Virus record (IMG/VR): IMGVR_UViG_3300046009_011724
Location: 1-33,144 of that record
Origin: a virus
Reading direction: 5' to 3' (one strand)
DNA: 33,144 nucleotides
Shown here: one piece after another, positions 8,508 to 29,220 of the stretch
Layout of the letters: every line of letters starts with the position of its first letter
Numbering within the stretch: the stretch's first letter is position 1
Position numbers and translations under genes: made by a program
Notes under the pieces: model-generated
Database searches by the model: none
What the model saw: the letters and a program-made list of their open reading frames with translations, nothing else
What the model was told of the DNA's origin: nothing

Positions 8508-9268
8508 TCCACACGCACAACGCCCTGCGGCTGGGCGACAACCTCGTTCAGCTAAACTTCCTGCGCCGCGCCTGCCTGGCTGACCCGGCTCTGGAGGTGA
8601 CCCACTATCACAACCCCCAGCTCTGCCGGTTTGAGGAGATCGACGCCCTGCGGTCCGATATCTCCACACGCCTCCGAATCCGGCCCATCGAGGAGGCCCA
8701 GCCAGGCAGTATCGACAGCTGGCGCAACGCCGGTGGCTGGTGGGAGCGTCACCCGGACCGGCTGAACTTCGCCAAGTTTCATCTGGCTTGGTTCAACGAG
8801 CTGGCCGGCCGGATGGGGATCTCCAACCCGATGCGCACCGTGGATGACTTGCTATTTGATTATCCCACGCTGGACAGCTTCATCCCCATGGCGCCGGAGT
8901 GCGACGTGCTGGTAATCAACTCGCCCGGCCTGTCCGGCCAGTTTCTGAACTACAACCCGGAAGACTTTCGCGACCTTATCGCCCGGCTGGTGCTCAAGGG
9001 TCACCGCGTCCACAGCACCGCGCCCACCGGGCTGTGTCCGCATTTTGAAAACAGGAACGTAACTTTCATCGGCGCGGCATCGGTCAAGGCCAAGGTCATC
9101 GTGGGCACCAGCACCGGCCCCAGCTGGCCGTGCCTAAACGTCCACAACCGGGCCAAGCCCATCATCCTCTGCGCCGATCACGAGCAGGTGCTCCTCACGC
9201 CCGCCAGCCGGATGGCCCGCAGCGTCCACCACGCCATCCACCTTCTGGCCAAGGACGGCTGGCTGTGA
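8504..9268 (+). CDS. GT9/heptosyltransferase-like glycosyltransferase
   Basis: This 254-residue protein resembles GT-B enzymes of the ADP-heptose transferase type. The N-terminal LGDNLVQLNFLRRAC matches the G-D-x-x-x-x-x-x-x-L-R motif that opens GT9 proteins. The C-terminal half has CDVLVINSPGLSGQ and then VIVGTSTGPSWPCLN, which sits where GT9 enzymes place the nucleotide-sugar site. At 254 residues it is shorter than typical heptosyltransferases (about 320-350). It overlaps the preceding glycosyltransferase by ATGA and the next gene by GTGA, so the cassette is translationally coupled. The donor and acceptor cannot be read from the sequence. Confidence 0.65.
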   Translation: MIHTHNALRLGDNLVQLNFLRRACLADPALEVTHYHNPQLCRFEEIDALRSDISTRLRIRPIEEAQPGSIDSWRNAGGWWERHPDRLNFAKFHLAWFNELAGRMGISNPMRTVDDLLFDYPTLDSFIPMAPECDVLVINSPGLSGQFLNYNPEDFRDLIARLVLKGHRVHSTAPTGLCPHFENRNVTFIGAASVKAKVIVGTSTGPSWPCLNVHNRAKPIILCADHEQVLLTPASRMARSVHHAIHLLAKDGWL

Positions 9269-9795
9269 GCGCGTACAGGGAACAGCTCACCCTGGCCATG
9301 GACAATCTGGCCGCCGACAAGGCCGTCCGCTTCATCGGCTACGGCGTGAAGATCGGCGGCCGGGCCCTGGGCACGCTGAAAAACGTGCCGGAGGATCGGC
9401 TGATCGAAACGCCCGTGGCGGAAAACCTGATGGTCGGGCTGGCCACCGGCATGTCGCTGGCCGGCCTGCGGCCGCTCGTCTTCATCGAGCGGATGGATTT
9501 TATCCTCAACGCGCTGGACGCCATCGTGAACCATCTTGGCGCGGCCAGGAAAATCAGCCGCGGGCAGTTCCAGCCCGCCGCCATCCTGCGCGTCGTCGTC
9601 GGCAACCGGCACAAGCCTCTCTACACCGGGCCCACCCACGTGCAGGACTTCACCGAGGCCATCCGGCAGATGGTGGATTTCCCGGTGGTGCGCCTAACCG
9701 GGCCAGAGCAAATCGCGCCCGCTTACTTTGAGGCCCACGAGGCCCTGCACTGCGGCCGCAGCACCATGCTCGTCGAGCACAAGGACATGATCTGA
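9265..9795 (+). CDS. E1-beta / transketolase Pyr-domain protein
   Basis: This 176-residue protein matches the pyrimidine-binding domain of TPP enzymes of the 2-oxoacid dehydrogenase E1-beta/transketolase group. The core run is RLIETPVAENLMVGLATGMS then AGLRPLVFIERMDFILNALD. In E1-beta enzymes the Glu of TPxxE (E53 here) contacts the TPP aminopyrimidine. The ending with GPTHVQDF and VVRLTGPEQ also follows the family. The C-terminal domain (about 120 residues) of normal E1-beta is absent. The GTG at 9265 is chosen because it overlaps the previous stop (GTGA); sequence before it only mirrors the upstream gene. It probably pairs with the protein at 10883. Confidence 0.8.
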   Translation: MSAYREQLTLAMDNLAADKAVRFIGYGVKIGGRALGTLKNVPEDRLIETPVAENLMVGLATGMSLAGLRPLVFIERMDFILNALDAIVNHLGAARKISRGQFQPAAILRVVVGNRHKPLYTGPTHVQDFTEAIRQMVDFPVVRLTGPEQIAPAYFEAHEALHCGRSTMLVEHKDMI

Positions 9796-10886
9796 TGCGC
9801 CAGAACAAGTACAGCGACTACAAGATTTTCAGCTTTCCGGAGAAGGTGGAGAGTTTCCGCACCCGCACGCTTACCGCGCCCGTCTACGTCCGCATCAAGC
9901 CCACCAACCGCTGCAACCACGCCTGCCGCTTTTGCACTTATTCCGACGGCACCACCCGCCCCAAGGACCGGCCGGACCTTCACCTGCAGTCCGCCATGCA
10001 CACCGAGATGAAGGAGCAGGACGTCATGCCCACGTGGAAACTCTTGGAGCTGATGGACGATTTGCGCGAGATGAACGTCCGGGCCGTCACGTTTTCCGGG
10101 GGAGGGGAGCCGCTGTTTCATCCGGCCATCTGCCCGGCCATGACTTCCACCCTGTCCTCCGGCATTGATCTTTCCATCATCACCAACGGCCAGCTGCTGA
10201 CCGGCGAGCGGGCCGAAATTCTTACCCGCGCCAAATGGGTACGCGTGTCCATCGATTACACCAGCGCGGAGCAGATGCACCAGAGCCGGGCCGTGCCGCC
10301 CGCCAGCTTTGAGGCCGTGCTGAAAAACATGCGGCAGTTTGCCTCCGCCAAGACCGCCACGTGCGACTTGGGCGTCAATTTCATCGTCACCCGCTACAAC
10401 TACGAGGGCCTCACCCCGTTTGCCAAAACGCTCAAAGAATGCGGCGTGGAGAATGTGCGCTTCTCGCCCGTCTACGTGCAGGGCTTTAAGGATTATCACA
10501 AGGGCATCGCCGTGCGCGTGCGCGAACAGCTGGCCGAATGCCAGGCGCTGGTGGACGACACCTTTTCCGTCAACAGCACCTACGATCTGGACAGCCCCGG
10601 CAAGAGCCCCGTTCGGCCCTTTCACCGCTGCCTGTACGCCCAAGCTGTCTGCGTGGCCGCAGCCGATCTGAACATCTATGCCTGCCACAACACCGCCTAC
10701 AGCGCCCACGGCCGGATCGCCTCGTTCCAGGACCAGTCATTCCGCCAGGCGTGGTTCAGCCCGGAGGCGCGGGAGTGGCACGCCAAGTTCAACCCCGGCG
10801 TGGCCTGCCTGCACGAATGCGCCAATCACAACAAGGTGGCGCTGTTTGAAAGCCTGGCGTCCGACAGCCACGACGCCTTTGTATGA
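9795..10886 (+). CDS. Radical SAM enzyme with SPASM-like C-terminus
   Basis: This 363-residue protein has the 4Fe-4S cluster motif C40-x3-C44-x2-C47 (RCNHACRFC), which binds S-adenosylmethionine to make a 5'-deoxyadenosyl radical. The SAM-binding FSGGGEPLFH follows at about 100-109. Beyond the barrel are further Cys residues (C279, C286, C297, C338, C342) in a pattern like a SPASM or twitch auxiliary-cluster region. Such enzymes carry out peptide modification, dehydrogenation or epimerisation. The gene sits between the two E1-like subunits with 1-nt and 4-nt overlaps, so all three products are probably made together. The substrate is unknown. Confidence 0.88.
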   Translation: MRQNKYSDYKIFSFPEKVESFRTRTLTAPVYVRIKPTNRCNHACRFCTYSDGTTRPKDRPDLHLQSAMHTEMKEQDVMPTWKLLELMDDLREMNVRAVTFSGGGEPLFHPAICPAMTSTLSSGIDLSIITNGQLLTGERAEILTRAKWVRVSIDYTSAEQMHQSRAVPPASFEAVLKNMRQFASAKTATCDLGVNFIVTRYNYEGLTPFAKTLKECGVENVRFSPVYVQGFKDYHKGIAVRVREQLAECQALVDDTFSVNSTYDLDSPGKSPVRPFHRCLYAQAVCVAAADLNIYACHNTAYSAHGRIASFQDQSFRQAWFSPEAREWHAKFNPGVACLHECANHNKVALFESLASDSHDAFV

Positions 10887-11512
10887 CCGCCCACGACCTT
10901 ATCAGCTTTGAGCTGCGGATCCGCCGCCTATTCAGGGAGGGGAAGCTGCCCTACCTGATCCACCTTTGCGGCGGCAACGAGGTGCAGCTCATCCGGCTGT
11001 TTGCCGAAATCCGCCGGGGAGACTGGGTTTTCTCCACCCACCGGTCCCATTACCACTATCTCCTCCACGGCGGGGATCCGGACACTCTGGAGCAGATGAT
11101 TTGCGAGGGGCGCAGCATGTTTGTCTTTGACCACCGGCTGAATTTCTACAGCTCCAGCGTGCTGGCCGGCACCTGCGGCATCGCCGCCGGGGTGGCCCAC
11201 CGCATCCAGGAGGCCGGCGAGGCCCGCCATGTCTGGTGTTTTGTGGGCGATGGGGCCGAGGACGAGGGCCACTTCTACGAGGCCGTGAACTACGTGGACG
11301 GTAAGGGCCTGCCCTGCACGTTTGTGATTGAGGACAACGACCGCAGCGTGGACACCACCAAAGCCCAGCGGGGCAGGGGACGCATCGGCTGGCCGCCCTG
11401 CGTGCGCCGGTATCATTACGTGCCGGAATACCCCCACGGGGGTGCCGGCCTGAAGGAGATGGTCACCTTTGATCCCTCCATCCGTCCCGTGTGGGATGAC
11501 ATAGCCCGATAA
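10883..11512 (+). CDS. E1-alpha-like TPP-binding subunit
   Basis: This 209-residue protein matches the PP domain of E1-alpha (2-oxoacid dehydrogenase) enzymes. GDGAEDEGHFYEAVNYV starts at residue 122, and EDN at 150-152 closes the Mg-TPP motif that is usually GDG...NN. Before it, SSVLAGTCGIAAGVAHRI parallels the helix preceding the TPP site, and THRSHYHYLLHGG parallels the region around the E1-alpha active-site His. Normal E1-alpha proteins are about 320-400 residues, so this is a trimmed form. It probably forms a heteromer with the Pyr-domain protein at 9265. Which keto acid or ketose it cleaves is not evident. Confidence 0.8.
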   Translation: MTAHDLISFELRIRRLFREGKLPYLIHLCGGNEVQLIRLFAEIRRGDWVFSTHRSHYHYLLHGGDPDTLEQMICEGRSMFVFDHRLNFYSSSVLAGTCGIAAGVAHRIQEAGEARHVWCFVGDGAEDEGHFYEAVNYVDGKGLPCTFVIEDNDRSVDTTKAQRGRGRIGWPPCVRRYHYVPEYPHGGAGLKEMVTFDPSIRPVWDDIAR

Positions 11513-23734: not shown

Positions 23735-24472
23735 GTGAACGTCGTCCGCAAGTGGAGACGCTGGATGGCGGTGGGCTGTACCCACGCCGGCTACATAGAT
23801 CGAGCCGCCTGGGAACAGGTGCTGGCCTTTAAGCGCCGCTGGCGCCCCGTGGAGACCATCCATTTGGGGGATTTTCTGGATACGGCCGCCTGGCGCGCCG
23901 GTGCCCGCAAGGATCCGGACGATCCGGACCGCTCCGCCAGCTTTTCAGACGACTACCTGCACGGCATGACGCATCTCAAAGAGCTTGAAGTGACTACCGT
24001 CCTAGCCGGGAATCATGAAGCGAGACTTTGGTCGCTGGTGCGTTCGCCGTCCGCCGTGGTGGCCTACGCGGCAGAGCAGGGGACGCAGGCCATCGAGCAG
24101 ACGATTAAAAAGCTAAAGGCCCGGCTGTTGCCCTACGACATCGAGGAAGGGCTTTTCCTTCTGGGAGACACCGTATTTCTGCACGGCTTCCAGTGCTCCG
24201 TCAGCGCCGTGCGGGACACGGTGGAATCCATCGGAAAAAACATCGTCATGGCGCATCTGCACCGGCCGGAGATTGCCCGGGGCCGGGTGCTGCGTTCGCC
24301 GGTGGGGATCTGTGTGGGAACGCTGGCCAACATCGGGGCCATGGGGTACGCCCGGGCCCGCCGGGCCACGTACCAGTGGGGCCACGGCTTTGCCTATGGG
24401 GAATACTGCCAGGATGCGTGCGTCAGCTGGCTGGCCACGCCGGTGAAGGGGGAGTGGCGCTTTCCGCTGTGA
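23735..24472 (+). CDS. Calcineurin-like metallophosphoesterase
   Basis: This 245-residue enzyme carries the blocks GCTH (14-17), LGDFLD (44-49), GNHE (92-95), a His after VFL (H150) and AHLH (173-176). These blocks give the two-metal site of the calcineurin-like phosphoesterase fold. The first block normally has an Asp two residues before the His (DxH); here that residue is Cys15, which could weaken or alter metal binding. The substrate cannot be told and could be a nucleotide, nucleic acid or phosphorylated protein. It begins with GTG and a TTGACA motif, and its stop overlaps the next gene (GTGA). Confidence 0.8.
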   Translation: MNVVRKWRRWMAVGCTHAGYIDRAAWEQVLAFKRRWRPVETIHLGDFLDTAAWRAGARKDPDDPDRSASFSDDYLHGMTHLKELEVTTVLAGNHEARLWSLVRSPSAVVAYAAEQGTQAIEQTIKKLKARLLPYDIEEGLFLLGDTVFLHGFQCSVSAVRDTVESIGKNIVMAHLHRPEIARGRVLRSPVGICVGTLANIGAMGYARARRATYQWGHGFAYGEYCQDACVSWLATPVKGEWRFPL

Positions 24473-24747
24473 AGGGTAAGGTGGGCTGGGCAGAGGCAAT
24501 TCAGCGGGCCTTTGCCCAGGAGGCGGACGTGGTGCCGCCGGGGTGGCAGACGCTCAACGAAGTGGCCGTCGAGATGGGTAAAAACAAGTATTACGTGTGC
24601 CGGCAACTAAACGAAATGGTTCGGCTTGGCCGGGCTGAGACCAAAAAATTCCGCACCTGGTCCAAGGGCGGACGCGACCATCGCGGGGAGCGCAGGGGCT
24701 ACCTAAGGGCCAATCGTCACTATCGGCTGATAGCCAAAAGGGGATAA
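24469..24747 (+). CDS. Small winged-helix-like DNA-binding protein
   Basis: This 92-residue basic protein is coupled to the phosphoesterase by GTGA. The centre (GWQTLNEVAVEMGKNKYYVC then RQLNEMVRLGRAETKKFR) has the helix-turn-helix plus wing pattern of a small winged-helix domain. The C-terminus is rich in Arg and ends NRHYRLIAKRG. It could be a transcription regulator or a DNA-associated factor. No family is recognised with certainty. It converges with the reverse RHH gene (1-nt gap). Confidence 0.55.
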   Translation: MKGKVGWAEAIQRAFAQEADVVPPGWQTLNEVAVEMGKNKYYVCRQLNEMVRLGRAETKKFRTWSKGGRDHRGERRGYLRANRHYRLIAKRG

Positions 24748-24748
24748 C

Positions 24749-24958
24749 TTATCTCTTAATTTTTGCCCGTGACGGACCTTTGGCAAATATGGCAGGGCTC
24801 TCCTTGGTAAAACCCTGCTCTCGGGCTGCCTCCTTAATTAACAGCTGGGTGATGAAGACGCTTAAAGACATGCCGGAGCGGTCGGCCAGATCCATGGCTT
24901 TCTTTTTGACCTCGCTGGGCAGGTAGACGTTGGTCCGCTCCTTTTTCACGACACACAT
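24749..24958 (-). CDS. RHH (Arc/CopG-like) regulator, leftward
   Basis: This 69-residue protein on the reverse strand has a clear ribbon-helix-helix fold: the strand ERTNVYLPSEV, then helix 1 KKKAMDLADRSGM and helix 2 LSVFITQLLIKEAARE, followed by a basic tail (PSRAKIKR). RHH proteins bind operators as dimers. It is a paralogue of the forward RHH gene at 25061 (shared TN-YLP-EVKK and AD...S-T-LI pattern). The two are divergent with a 102-nt intergenic region that has a palindrome. No CI-type repressor is present in the window, so one of the pair is a good candidate lysogeny regulator. Confidence 0.8.
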   Translation of the reverse strand: MCVVKKERTNVYLPSEVKKKAMDLADRSGMSLSVFITQLLIKEAAREQGFTKESPAIFAKGPSRAKIKR

Positions 24959-25034
24959 TATGCGCTAAAACGACACCCCCGCAAGCCGTCCAAAAAAAAA
25001 TTTGGAAAAAGCAGATTTTTGTTGACGGCATAAA

Positions 25035-25057
25035 TATGGCGCACAGCGTGCGTCATA
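25035..25057. promoter_or_regulatory. Palindromic operator candidate
   Basis: Arms TATGGCGCAC (25035-25044) and GTGCGTCATA (25048-25057) are inverted around AGC, with one mismatch. The site lies just before the forward RHH start (25061), within the divergent intergenic region. It fits an operator bound by one or both RHH dimers. TTGACG at 25022 lies just upstream of it, but no clear -10 sits at normal spacing. Confidence 0.55.
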
Positions 25058-25060
25058 GTT

Positions 25061-25219
25061 ATGGCACCCCGTGACAAGAGCGAGCCGACCAACCTTTACC
25101 TTCCGCTGGAGGTGAAAAAAGCCGGAATTAAAATGGCCGACGATCGCCGCCTTTCCTTTTCCCAGCTGGTCACTGAACTCATCGAGCGCCACGCGCTTGA
25201 GATCGAGGAAGCAAGATAG
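25061..25219 (+). CDS. RHH (Arc/CopG-like) regulator, rightward
   Basis: This 52-residue protein reads EPTNLYLPLEVKKAGIKMAD and then LSFSQLVTELIERHALEIEE. It follows the RHH plan of strand, helix, turn and helix, and it is a paralogue of the reverse gene ending at 24749. It is a minimal form without a C-terminal extension. A palindrome lies immediately upstream, so autoregulation is likely. Divergent orientation to a related gene recalls a Cro/CI or Arc/Mnt type switch. The xis-like gene begins 8 nt after its stop, so it may share that transcript. Confidence 0.75.
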   Translation: MAPRDKSEPTNLYLPLEVKKAGIKMADDRRLSFSQLVTELIERHALEIEEAR

Positions 25220-25226
25220 TCCGGCC

Positions 25227-25586
25227 ATGAGCGTGGGGGCTTTTAACGGTGACGGTGCCAGGGAAAACGGGATGCCCCCGCGCGCGCATGAAAAGCGCAC
25301 GCTAAACCAGCCGCTTAACTTGCGGGAATTGTCGGAGGCGTACGGGATAACGTACCACCGGGCCCGCTCCCTGTCCTTTGAAGCCGGTTTTCCGATGGTG
25401 CGTGGGCTGGTGTTTCCGCGGGCGTTTGAGGATTGGATGTCGGCAGGCCCGCGTTCACGTAGTTGCGCAAGTCCTCAACAGAGTGGCGCTGATACAGGTC
25501 GTGAACCAAGGTCGAGGAATGGTTTACGAGTCTCATGGCAACAGCTTGCACAATCCCTGCCCTTCGCAGGTTCGTCACTCGGGTAG
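25227..25586 (+). CDS. Excisionase-like HTH protein
   Basis: This 119-residue protein has a MerR/Xis-like HTH in its N-terminal half: LNLRELSEAYGITYHRARSL then FEAGFPMVRGLVFPRAFEDW (about 31-72). The C-terminal 45 residues have no domain character and lie on the strand opposite the integrase gene's 3' end, so the true functional part is probably the first 75 residues. Excisionases bend attachment-site DNA and direct the integrase to excise. Position next to integrase and the regulator supports this. The antisense overlap with the integrase is 272 bp. Confidence 0.6.
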   Translation: MSVGAFNGDGARENGMPPRAHEKRTLNQPLNLRELSEAYGITYHRARSLSFEAGFPMVRGLVFPRAFEDWMSAGPRSRSCASPQQSGADTGREPRSRNGLRVSWQQLAQSLPFAGSSLG

Positions 25587-26460
25587 CGCGCAGGCCATGG
25601 AAACTATGATGTTTAAGCCCCACCAGATTAAAGAAGCGGCGCCAGTAGCAGGAGACCTTGGTGCCGGCTCCAGGCCACTCGAAGGTGTGGGAGCGCGGCG
25701 TGGCTTTCAGCTTGCGGAACAGGGGAAGCAAGCCGTCGGGAATGGGGATGGTGTAGGCGCAGCCGGATCCTCCCTTGGGCTCGGGGAACGTCATGGTGCC
25801 GGCCTCCAGGTCGATGCAGGACAAGGGCAGTCGGGTCTCCTTCATCCGGCAGCCGGTGTGGTAGGCGATCTCGAAGCTGGTGCGCATCCAGTCGGGGATG
25901 TAGCGGCTGGCCAGCGCCTCCCGGCAGCGGGCGACATGCTCCTCGGTAAAGACCGGCTTGCGGGTGACCGGGCTTTTGCGGGAACGGAAATCCACCATGG
26001 CCATGCTGGTCATGTGACCCAGCAGCCGGCCGTTTCGGTGGATCCATTTAAGGATCTTAATGTCCTGCAGGGCTTGGTTGCGGCCGACGAAGCCGCCCCC
26101 GGTGCGGGGCGTGGCCGTGCGCCAGGCGATGTAGTCGTGGGCCGTGGCCGGGGCAAAGTCTTCAAGGGCCACTCGGCGTTCGCACATGAAGCGGATCAGG
26201 TTTCGCCAGCTGTTGCGGTAGTAGATCCGGGTGTTGTCGCCGACGGGGTGGGTTTCGATAAGGCGATCCACCCAGGTGAGATCTTTGCTTCGCTTGTCCT
26301 GCTCGTGGACGGAAAGGTCGGCGGCTTCTTGCCGGGCCTTGGCGCGGTGCAGCGTGTTGTCCGTCCGGTAGCGCGTGGCCTTGGACCTGAGCTTTCTGTC
26401 CTTGGTTTTGTACCTGATCCAATACCAAGGACTGTCGGATCTTTTGTAAATGTAGGCCAC
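25315..26460 (-). CDS. Tyrosine integrase
   Basis: This 381-residue protein starts at a GTG and reads VAYIYKRSDSPWYWIRYKT, a usual integrase N-terminus. The core-binding domain spans about 62-165, and the catalytic domain has R205 (HTGCRMKE), K229, H288 and R291 (HGLR), H314 (VNHSS) and Y323 (LVHDLYQRH). All expected catalytic residues are present. The reading further upstream (Met at 26517) has no integrase character, so 26460 is chosen. The last about 40 residues are Pro/Thr-rich and antisense to the excisionase-like gene. Integrase transcription runs away from attP. Confidence 0.92.
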   Translation of the reverse strand: MAYIYKRSDSPWYWIRYKTKDRKLRSKATRYRTDNTLHRAKARQEAADLSVHEQDKRSKDLTWVDRLIETHPVGDNTRIYYRNSWRNLIRFMCERRVALEDFAPATAHDYIAWRTATPRTGGGFVGRNQALQDIKILKWIHRNGRLLGHMTSMAMVDFRSRKSPVTRKPVFTEEHVARCREALASRYIPDWMRTSFEIAYHTGCRMKETRLPLSCIDLEAGTMTFPEPKGGSGCAYTIPIPDGLLPLFRKLKATPRSHTFEWPGAGTKVSCYWRRFFNLVGLKHHSFHGLRATRVTNLRRAGIVQAVAMRLVNHSSTLVHDLYQRHSVEDLRNYVNAGLPTSNPQTPAETPAHAPSENRLQRTGSGPGGTLSRTPPTIPAS

Positions 26461-26501
26461 GTAATCATCGTAACCAATCACCCAAAAACAGAAAGAAAAT
26501 A

Positions 26502-26723
26502 ATGAAACTCGACACATTAAAACACCAAAAAACTGAAATCGTTGCTCGCCGTGGGTTCAAATCCCACCCCGTCCGATCGTTGTCTGACAGTTACTTACAG
26601 GCCGAACGTAACAAAAACGTAACAAATCAAAGCCCCACGGAGGCTGAAAAGGCCCGCGAGGTGATGCTCCTCGTGCGCGGCCTGGCTGAACAGAAAACCG
26701 CGTGGCTCTGGGGGTCCCGATGA
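26502..26723 (+). CDS. Uncertain small ORF reading through attP
   Basis: A 73-residue ORF runs from ATG 26502 through the tRNA-like att core to a stop that overlaps the next gene's ATG. Its second half (SPTEAEKAREVMLLVRGLAE) looks protein-like, while the first half (RRGFKSHPVRS) is only the tRNA fragment in translation. The real start may be after attP, for example TTG 26580. If the 26502 start were used, integration would replace its 5' end with host DNA. Stop-start coupling to the next gene supports expression of at least the 3' part. Confidence 0.35.
   Translation: MKLDTLKHQKTEIVARRGFKSHPVRSLSDSYLQAERNKNVTNQSPTEAEKAREVMLLVRGLAEQKTAWLWGSR
26551..26575 (+). other. attP core: 3' part of a tRNA gene
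   Basis: GTGGG-TTCAAAT-CCCAC (26551-26567) folds as a perfect T-arm with a canonical TTCAAAT loop. CCCGTCC plus G (26568-26575) supplies the acceptor 3' strand and discriminator base. No 5' half of a tRNA is present. Phages that integrate in tRNA genes carry just this part in attP. It lies 90 nt upstream of the integrase start. Confidence 0.8.
26607..26626 (+). repeat. Tandem CGTAACAAA pair
   Basis: CGTAACAAA occurs twice (26607-26615 and 26618-26626), an 11-nt period, about 40 nt from the att core. It could be integrase or excisionase arm sites. The evidence is short. Confidence 0.35.
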
Positions 26724-27582: not shown

Positions 27583-28046
27583 AATACTTAAACGAGCTGG
27601 ACCCAGTGACGTCTGCGCTGACCTACCGCGTCTCACAGCTTGAGCGCAAGATCAATGACGAGATTTTGCCGGCCGTAAAGGAGATGACCAGCGCGCTGGC
27701 CACAATGAGACAAAACGCGGCTGTGGCCAGGATGGAGCTTAAACGGAGGAACTTGCAGGAGGCAGAGGTCCTGGCTGGATCTATCCTGTCTTGGAAGGAC
27801 ATCGCGGTACCCGCGGAGCTAAAGATTGCCAAAAGCAAAATAGGCAAAGGCCAGCGGCGGGGATCCGGCCGCAACCGGACAGCGGCTGTGGTAGCCAAGC
27901 GGTGGGCGCTTTGGAAAATGCAAAGGGCGCAGGGCTACACGGTGGAACAGATTGCCCAGGCGTGGGGCTGCAACCACAGCAGCATTACCAACGCTGAGAA
28001 GCACAAGTTTCAGGCCGGCTACAGCGGGAGGCCGAGCAGCAAATGA
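27579..28046 (+). CDS. Coiled-coil + DnaA-like HTH protein (copy A)
   Basis: This 155-residue protein has an N-terminal helical part with coiled-coil character (ERKINDEILPAVKEMTSAL, 22-40). A basic linker (SKIGKGQRRGSGRNRT) leads to an HTH of the type RNRTxxVVAxRWxxW...ARAW-C-H(T/S)SxxNA at 98-140. The CNHSSITNA segment parallels the DHxTVxxA signature of DnaA domain IV and of phage initiators. A related gene lies at 29998. The conserved DNA-binding part and the variable N-terminus suggest two DNA-binding proteins with different partners, possibly origin or regulatory binders. Confidence 0.65.
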   Translation: MKYLNELDPVTSALTYRVSQLERKINDEILPAVKEMTSALATMRQNAAVARMELKRRNLQEAEVLAGSILSWKDIAVPAELKIAKSKIGKGQRRGSGRNRTAAVVAKRWALWKMQRAQGYTVEQIAQAWGCNHSSITNAEKHKFQAGYSGRPSSK

Positions 28047-28306
28047 GCCGTTTTTCTTTGCGAAAGCGGGAGACGGCATGCAAGACGAGGCCGGTGCTAC
28101 GCCGGTGCCGGTGGATGGCGCAGATGTTGAGGGAAACGGGTGAGCTGCCCAGCTGTGAGAAGCTGGGTCAAGAGTTTGAGGTTTCCTACAAAACCATTGC
28201 TCGGGACATCGACCTAATGCGGGACTTCATGGGCTACCCAATTCAGTACGACCGCCTTACTTACACGTGGAAGCTGTCAGGCCCGCTACCGGAGCCAGTG
28301 CTTTAA
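28043..28306 (+). CDS. Winged-HTH regulator (DeoR/WYL N-terminal type)
   Basis: This 87-residue protein is basic at the N-terminus (RFSLRKRETACKTRPVLRRC), followed by LPSCEKLGQEFEVSYKTIAR and DIDLMRDFMGYPIQYDRLTY. The segment from about 33 to 80 matches the HTH_11/DeoR DNA-binding region found at the start of WYL-type regulators (VSxxTIxRDIxxMRxxxGxPIxYD). No effector domain follows. It overlaps the previous stop (ATGA). A role as early transcription regulator is likely. Confidence 0.65.
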   Translation: MSRFSLRKRETACKTRPVLRRCRWMAQMLRETGELPSCEKLGQEFEVSYKTIARDIDLMRDFMGYPIQYDRLTYTWKLSGPLPEPVL

Positions 28307-28616: not shown

Positions 28617-28711
28617 GTGAACTAGAACTGATCGTGCGACTGGCCATACCGGCCGCGGCCGTGGGGCTGCTGGCGCTGGCGTGGCCGGTTCTAAAAAGCT
28701 GGGACGCGTAG
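28613..28711 (+). CDS. Micro membrane protein
   Basis: A 32-residue ORF reads MSELELIVRLAIPAAAVGLL, then ALAWPVLKSWDA. A strong AGGAGG ribosome site lies just upstream (28601-28606). It has one hydrophobic segment spanning most of its length. It is coupled on both sides. Functions of such microproteins vary; none can be assigned. Confidence 0.45.
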   Translation: MSELELIVRLAIPAAAVGLLALAWPVLKSWDA

Positions 28712-29220
28712 TGACCTACGCAGGCCACCATTGTGATGCGGCCGACAGGCCGGAGGCGAGCCATACCCCCTGCATGGCTAGCTTATGCGACAACCCCATC
28801 GAGGCCCTTTATAGGGAAGCGACGGAATCGTACAGCAGTGGTGGCCTGCCCGGCTTTCAAAAATGGCTGACGATCACCACGGCGGATCAGGCCAGGCAGC
28901 TGACGGTGGAGACGCTATCCCGCGTGCTGCCGATGTTGGTGAAGCCGGGGAACGTGCGGCTGAGGGTGTATGCCCTAATGTTTGCGATCAACTCCGACGC
29001 GCTGAATGGCGTGTGGACGCAGACGGCCGCGGCCAAGGAAATGGGAGTGACGCGGGCAGCGGTAAGCAAGCAGGTGCAGTGGTGGCTGGATTTCTTGGGA
29101 TTCCGACGCAACGCGCACACCAAAAGCGCGGAGGCGGTGGAAAGTTATCGAACGGTGCAGCGGGAGCGGCACTGGAGGCGGCAATCAATAGGCAAAAAAG
29201 GAGGCAAAAAATGCAAATAA
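28711..29220 (+). CDS. HTH early protein
   Basis: This 169-residue protein from GTG 28711 (overlapping the previous TAG by one base) has a Cys/His-containing start of uncertain reality (TYAGHHCDAADRPEA). The Met at 28774 is an alternative start. The body has a helix bundle (QARQLTVETLSRVLPMLVKP) and an HTH (TQTAAAKEMGVTRAAVSKQV, about 120-145), followed by a basic C-terminus. It resembles small phage replication- or packaging-associated HTH proteins. The next gene begins inside its 3' end with its own ribosome site. Confidence 0.55.
   Translation: MTYAGHHCDAADRPEASHTPCMASLCDNPIEALYREATESYSSGGLPGFQKWLTITTADQARQLTVETLSRVLPMLVKPGNVRLRVYALMFAINSDALNGVWTQTAAAKEMGVTRAAVSKQVQWWLDFLGFRRNAHTKSAEAVESYRTVQRERHWRRQSIGKKGGKKCK

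Follow-up and report, generated by a model that had tools for sequence, protein, structure and literature searches.

A divergent ribbon-helix-helix pair as a probable lysis-lysogeny switch in a temperate phage of Verrucomicrobia

Introduction

Which genes decide between lysis and lysogeny in a phage that carries an integrase and appears to have no CI-like repressor? In most known phages, this choice is handled by a different kind of repressor pair from the one described here. Where a CI-like repressor is missing, the phage is often judged not to be temperate, or else to have an unknown repressor. The question is raised by the IMG/VR virus record IMGVR_UViG_3300046009_011724, analysed from position 1 to 33,144 (33,144 bases, hereafter the window). 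Its plus strand carries terminase, portal, and endolysin genes at the left and primase and helicase-like genes at the right; the genes of note on the minus strand are the integrase gene (int) and that of a small ribbon-helix-helix (RHH) protein, RHH1. Elsewhere in the window (9184-11512), a transketolase/E1-beta-like gene, a radical SAM gene, and an E1-alpha-like gene lie together, adjoining a glycosyltransferase gene.

A preliminary description of this DNA proposed that RHH1 and a second such protein, RHH2, encoded beside xis and int, act as the equivalent of CI and Cro. Both open reading frames lie where it had placed them, and the order of RHH2 followed by xis, with int antisense, is kept in relatives. 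Should the pair prove to be the switch, judging by the missing CI-like repressor would give the wrong verdict on an entire phage family. The two proteins, of 52-66 aa, and the predicted operators lend themselves to a direct in vitro test of the idea. The genes and attachment site of the locus are as follows:

24749-24958, minus strand: RHH1, annotated as 69 aa; probable start at GTG 24947-24949, the start used by relatives, giving 66 aa
25061-25219, plus strand: RHH2, 52 aa, paralogue of RHH1
25227-25586, plus strand: xis-like small protein, behind RHH2 and antisense to the end of int; same place in relatives
25315-26517, minus strand: tyrosine integrase, int (Phage_integrase, E 5e-9; PHROG 1 integrase, E 1e-29)
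26549-26575, plus strand: attP core CCGTGGGTTCAAATCCCACCCCGTCCG, exact 3' end of tRNA-Ser(CGA), 27-nt identity
26605-26626, plus strand: two direct repeats AACGTAACAAA, possible arm sites for integrase or Xis

A conserved locus in temperate relatives

Relatives were gathered by scanning viral contigs with int, RHH1, and RHH2. The viral records are metagenomic contigs that may be incomplete, and 18 further ones were used, falling into group A (L003, L004, L005, and L007), group B (L009, L010, L012, L049, L054, L055, L068, and L069), and group C (L061-L066). The preliminary description had suggested looking for the pair in other temperate phages. In all 18 contigs RHH1 and RHH2 are divergent, xis follows RHH2, and int runs antisense to the end of xis; another contig, L011, has the same arrangement. 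A search of 50,697 sequenced-phage records gave no match to RHH1, matches to RHH2 only at E 3 or worse, and two weak matches to the integrase. The wider Verrucomicrobia genomes held one RHH match with no paired partner seen near it, and in contig L056 an RHH-like protein stands alone, its divergent partner not seen.

With no match in Pfam, the gene is named xis for its position and an HTH-like sequence. The gene overlaps the 3' end of int antisense by 272 nt (25315-25586), and the overlap is kept in relatives. A similar overlap occurs in L019, a chromosomal element of the host family, where an HTH_3 protein lies beside xis in the position of the RHH pair.

Verrucomicrobia genomes from the same family as MAG UBA3063 carry a tRNA-Ser(CGA) whose 3' end is identical to the 27-nt attP core. 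Among the relatives, too, wherever a core can be recognised, a tRNA 3' end lies upstream of int; none was found in L069. Both parts of a temperate-phage lysogeny module are thus present, an integrase and an attP that matches a host site, and on this sequence evidence the phage is a temperate phage of Verrucomicrobia. The search for an integrated prophage copy turned up nothing more than a short phage contig within a single MAG (L013). Just past attP on the early side, a GC-rich hairpin-like stretch was noticed by eye (26640-26680). Several relatives keep a peptide that it encodes as well; the stretch could be a structural RNA or coding.

The int of L003 shows just 45% identity and belongs to another clade, and the attP core is different, matching tRNA-Met, which relatives of that clade target; yet the RHH pair is 82-87% identical.

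In most relatives, a variable cargo gene lies behind RHH1 on the same strand (L003, L004/L006, L009, L012, L055, L061, L064, L068, and L069), its start often overlapping the preceding stop; the window and L010 are without it. The cargo is either a signal-peptide-like protein, most of these belonging to one family (VGGGGxSxRI), or a small membrane-like protein. Examples of the VGGGGxSxRI family, which has no clear Pfam match, lie at 6216-6680 in L003, 9740-10183 in L009, 9752-10237 in L012, and 5231-5749 in L061. Since variable cargo behind a repressor gene resembles the cI-rex arrangement of lambda, RHH1 is likely to be the gene that the lysogen expresses.

Two paralogous proteins with a ribbon-helix-helix fold

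The preliminary description took the two proteins to be paralogues, and this is borne out: RHH1 and RHH2 share 44-45% identity across 40-41 aa (E about 1e-7), and a profile-profile comparison joins them with 98% probability (E 1.3e-13). Their predicted DNA-contact strands are nearly identical (TNVYLP and TNLYLP). Both are under purifying selection, with dN/dS of 0.12-0.33 and 0.04-0.19 in group A.

Neither sequence reaches the curated cut-off of an RHH family: RHH1 matches Pfam RHH_5 with E 1.5e-4 and 21.9 bits, below the cut-off of 26, and the Pfam scan gave no match for RHH2. RHH1 also matches the Arc-like PHROG 582 (E 0.004). The top PDB match of the RHH1 profile is P22 Arc (E 0.001), and that of the RHH2 profile is a CopG-family RHH protein (E 0.0015). 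AlphaFold models of both are two-helix folds, with the strand not assigned in the monomers. RHH structures head their Foldseek lists at E 0.3-1, values that are weak, as expected, because the chains are so short. By profile similarity and the two-helix models, RHH1 and RHH2 have the ribbon-helix-helix (MetJ/Arc) fold. RHH1 is proposed to be the lysogeny-side repressor, in the role of Mnt or CI, and RHH2 the lytic-side repressor, in the role of Arc or Cro.

Two like predicted operators on two promoters

The region between the two genes, described earlier as 102 nt long, is truly divergent, and its length needs a correction. RHH1 probably starts at GTG 24947-24949 because relatives start there and the -10-like CATAAT of its promoter overlaps the upstream ATG of the annotated gene. 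The spacer is therefore about 111 nt long. Its predicted sites, and one candidate inside xis, are listed here:

24951-24965: O1, operator ACACACATTATGCGC, on the RHH1 promoter and start; best score in the window, 17.7 bits
24957-24984, minus strand: RHH1 promoter candidate TTGCGG-16-CATAAT, with the -10 inside O1; same place in nearly all relatives
25022-25027, plus strand: TTGACG, -35-like element for RHH2-xis, conserved among the aligned spacers; the -10 is weak
25035-25057: palindrome TATGGCGCAC-AGC-GTGCGTCATA, noted in the preliminary description; contains O2
25039-25053: O2, operator GCGCACAGCGTGCGT, on the RHH2-xis promoter; second best score in the window, 14.1 bits
25284-25298: possible third operator GCGCATGAAAAGCGC, inside xis; third best score, 10.8 bits

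The palindrome reported earlier is present and is weak when taken alone. The best dyad of the spacer has p about 0.1, so that palindrome strength by itself was not decisive as proof; an extended 35-nt dyad in the spacer has p 0.003. What makes the palindrome convincing is an operator motif conserved across relatives rather than the strength of a 10-nt dyad. In an alignment of the spacers, TGCGCA-type sites stand at both sides. The 15-bp operator model is of the type GCGCAYA-N-TRTGCGC.

The model was built only from the operators of group C, the distant relatives, and then run over about 33,130 positions of the window. Its two best matches are O1 and O2. In a column-shuffled control, both top window matches fell in the spacer for 7 of 2000 models. 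The spacer also holds the top match in the other loci and genomes tested, and both top matches in most of them. The exceptions are L007 and L068, with one strong spacer site each, and L009, with one strong and several weaker sites. The half-sites of an operator are about 10-11 bp apart, a spacing that would suit paired RHH dimers by analogy with the known binding mode of Arc and CopG.

The one contested operator of the preliminary description thus gives way to two like predicted operators, one per promoter; the site at 24951-24965, revealed by the conserved motif, had been missed. Outside the spacer, the window has one further candidate only, the site inside xis. This is also found in L004, L005, and L007 and may reflect coding conservation. 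A double operator-like site lies inside a gene in four of the five group C genomes searched; in the genome inspected, it is a glycosyltransferase-like gene downstream of the major capsid gene (L076 6285-6310, G033). It could be either a second regulatory site or coding conservation.

A strict sigma-70 scan found nothing above chance, and the RHH1 promoter candidate does not exceed chance when judged from the window alone. Across nearly all relatives, however, a sigma-70-like RHH1 promoter lies at a fixed distance with its -10 on O1 (in L012, TTGACA-17-TAAAAT). The RHH2 promoter has a conserved -35 across relatives, TTGACG or TTGCCA-like, and a weak -10.

How far would control by the pair reach?

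From these features, we infer DNA binding and read-through, which protein represses which promoter, expression in the lysogen, and the control of lytic genes beyond xis. In the lysogen, RHH1 would be made from its conserved promoter, bind O2, and shut the RHH2-xis promoter, and the prophage would stay integrated. Upon infection or induction, the RHH2-xis promoter would fire and RHH2 would be produced. This protein would bind O1 (and O2) and, in the manner of Cro and Arc, shut RHH1 and hold its own operon in check. The RHH2 transcript would make Xis and run antisense over int.

The operator scan of the window found no operators at int or early promoters. With the predicted operators sited at the pair, plus the weak candidate in xis, direct control would not extend beyond RHH1 and RHH2-xis; further lytic genes would come under the pair's control only by read-through. 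The RHH2-xis promoter and the early genes are on one strand, with attP between them. The interval from attP to the early genes has no above-chance promoter in most relatives tested, the exceptions being L012 and L055, with promoter-like sites near attP. The RHH2-xis transcript could therefore run on, on the circular genome, through attP into the early replication genes. This means that excision and lytic transcription would be coupled. One could even consider the RHH pair the sole switch and integration a part of it, the prophage being silenced by RHH1 and severed from its lytic promoter until excision reconnects them; this stricter version is possible but doubtful.

Could another repressor hold the lytic genes? 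The preliminary description saw no CI-like repressor, and this holds for the two families searched: no HTH_3 match above the cut-off in 9 records and no Peptidase_S24 match in 15, searches that would miss a repressor of another family. A CI-like HTH_3 or S24 repressor was accordingly rejected as the switch. If a separate regulator did hold the lytic genes, the pair would be a local controller of excision that sets Xis levels, much as immI of P22 is secondary to immC. Just as a local controller would have it, the pair's own promoters carry the predicted operators, the early and int regions carry none, and no gene other than xis stands directly behind RHH2. Small HTH proteins are also encoded elsewhere in the window (24469-24747, 28043-28306, and 28681-29220). 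However, some near-full-length relatives lack the genes at 28043 and 28681. The wHTH-like gene at 24469, kept in most relatives, sits behind a phosphoesterase gene at the end of the late-gene strand, and the early genes lack an above-chance promoter of their own in most relatives. Together with the HTH_3 and S24 results, this makes a purely local role rather unlikely. It is far less probable still that the RHH proteins, rather than forming a transcription switch, assist in recombination or partition or belong to a toxin-antitoxin module. Antitoxins and relaxosome and partition proteins often have RHH folds, as the Foldseek lists reflect, and the genes adjoin xis and int. The predicted sites, though, are at the two RHH promoters and not at attP, and L003 keeps the pair with an integrase and attP core of another clade. 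No toxin or ParA-like match was found among the neighbour genes scanned, and a toxin-antitoxin or partition module was rejected.

The reading of the pair as a lysis-lysogeny switch is the probable one. The paralogous pair, its conserved divergent order, the like operators, and attP are read directly from the sequence. In its favour are the paralogy, the conservation across 18 contigs, the purifying selection, and the two top operator matches on the pair's promoters, as well as the fixed RHH1 promoter with its -10 on O1, the variable cargo, and an attP matching a host tRNA. The persistence of the pair in L003 beside another integrase and a tRNA-Met core, and the HTH_3 and S24 searches, point the same way. 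Against it are early genes with no predicted operator, the weak -10 of RHH2, the promoter-like sites near attP in L012 and L055, the failure to find an integrated copy, the possible incompleteness of the records, and the chance that a repressor of another family escaped the searches. The in silico case that the pair regulates itself and xis is strong; that it is the main lysis-lysogeny switch is the best available reading, and a probable one. Of the proposed CI/Cro equivalence, the paralogy, divergence, like predicted operators, temperate int/attP, and negative HTH_3 and S24 repressor searches stand, and direct control is predicted only for RHH1 and RHH2-xis. On balance, the evidence leans towards an RHH-based switch of a temperate Verrucomicrobia phage, an Arc/Mnt-like pair wired over xis in the manner of a repressor and Cro.

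Comparison with known systems

The open-access literature searched described no RHH pair as the main switch of a bacterial phage and no immunity system for temperate Verrucomicrobia phages. The lambda regulators CI and Cro are divergent, each of their promoters has like operators, and cargo lies behind the repressor gene (cI-rex). The present locus is similar in its divergent regulators, its like predicted operators, and, in relatives, the cargo behind the repressor gene. The HTH fold, an SOS-cleavable CI, and three sites per operator region belong to lambda only and were not found here, nor was the lambda-type combination of an HTH_3 fold with an S24 peptidase.

In the Pseudomonas phage Pf4, Pf4r and XisF4 are divergent, repress each other, and decide between lysis and lysogeny (PMC7379572). 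There, too, the repressor gene and the excisionase side of the locus are divergent. Pf4r, however, resembles the P2 repressor C and not an RHH protein, and the excisionase itself is the opposing regulator, whereas here a second RHH protein precedes xis. F55 of the archaeal virus SSV1 is an RHH protein that keeps lysogeny by repressing the early genes and itself (PMC5569661). In contrast to the pair, it is a single protein in an archaeal host, with tandem-repeat sites at several early promoters and no divergent paralogue described. For the proposed read-through, Tn916 offers an analogy only: integration separates a promoter from downstream genes and circularisation reconnects them (PMC11658703), in a conjugative element with an antitermination system.

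The preliminary description named Arc/Mnt of P22 as a partial parallel, and Arc is the top solved match of the RHH1 profile. In P22, arc-ant and mnt are divergently transcribed, and arc precedes the effector gene ant as RHH2 here precedes xis. Arc and Mnt are short paralogous RHH proteins of 53 and 82 aa (PMC7549136); here, too, are two short, paralogous, divergent RHH proteins. In P22, Arc and Mnt regulate the antirepressor Ant, and a full CI-type repressor is encoded as well (immC); the present phage differs, with xis behind RHH2 and no HTH_3 or S24 repressor found. P22 has operators between the two genes, recognised by both proteins; here, like operators are predicted on both promoters. If the switch reading is true, Arc/Mnt, known as a side system, has a relative that serves as the main one.
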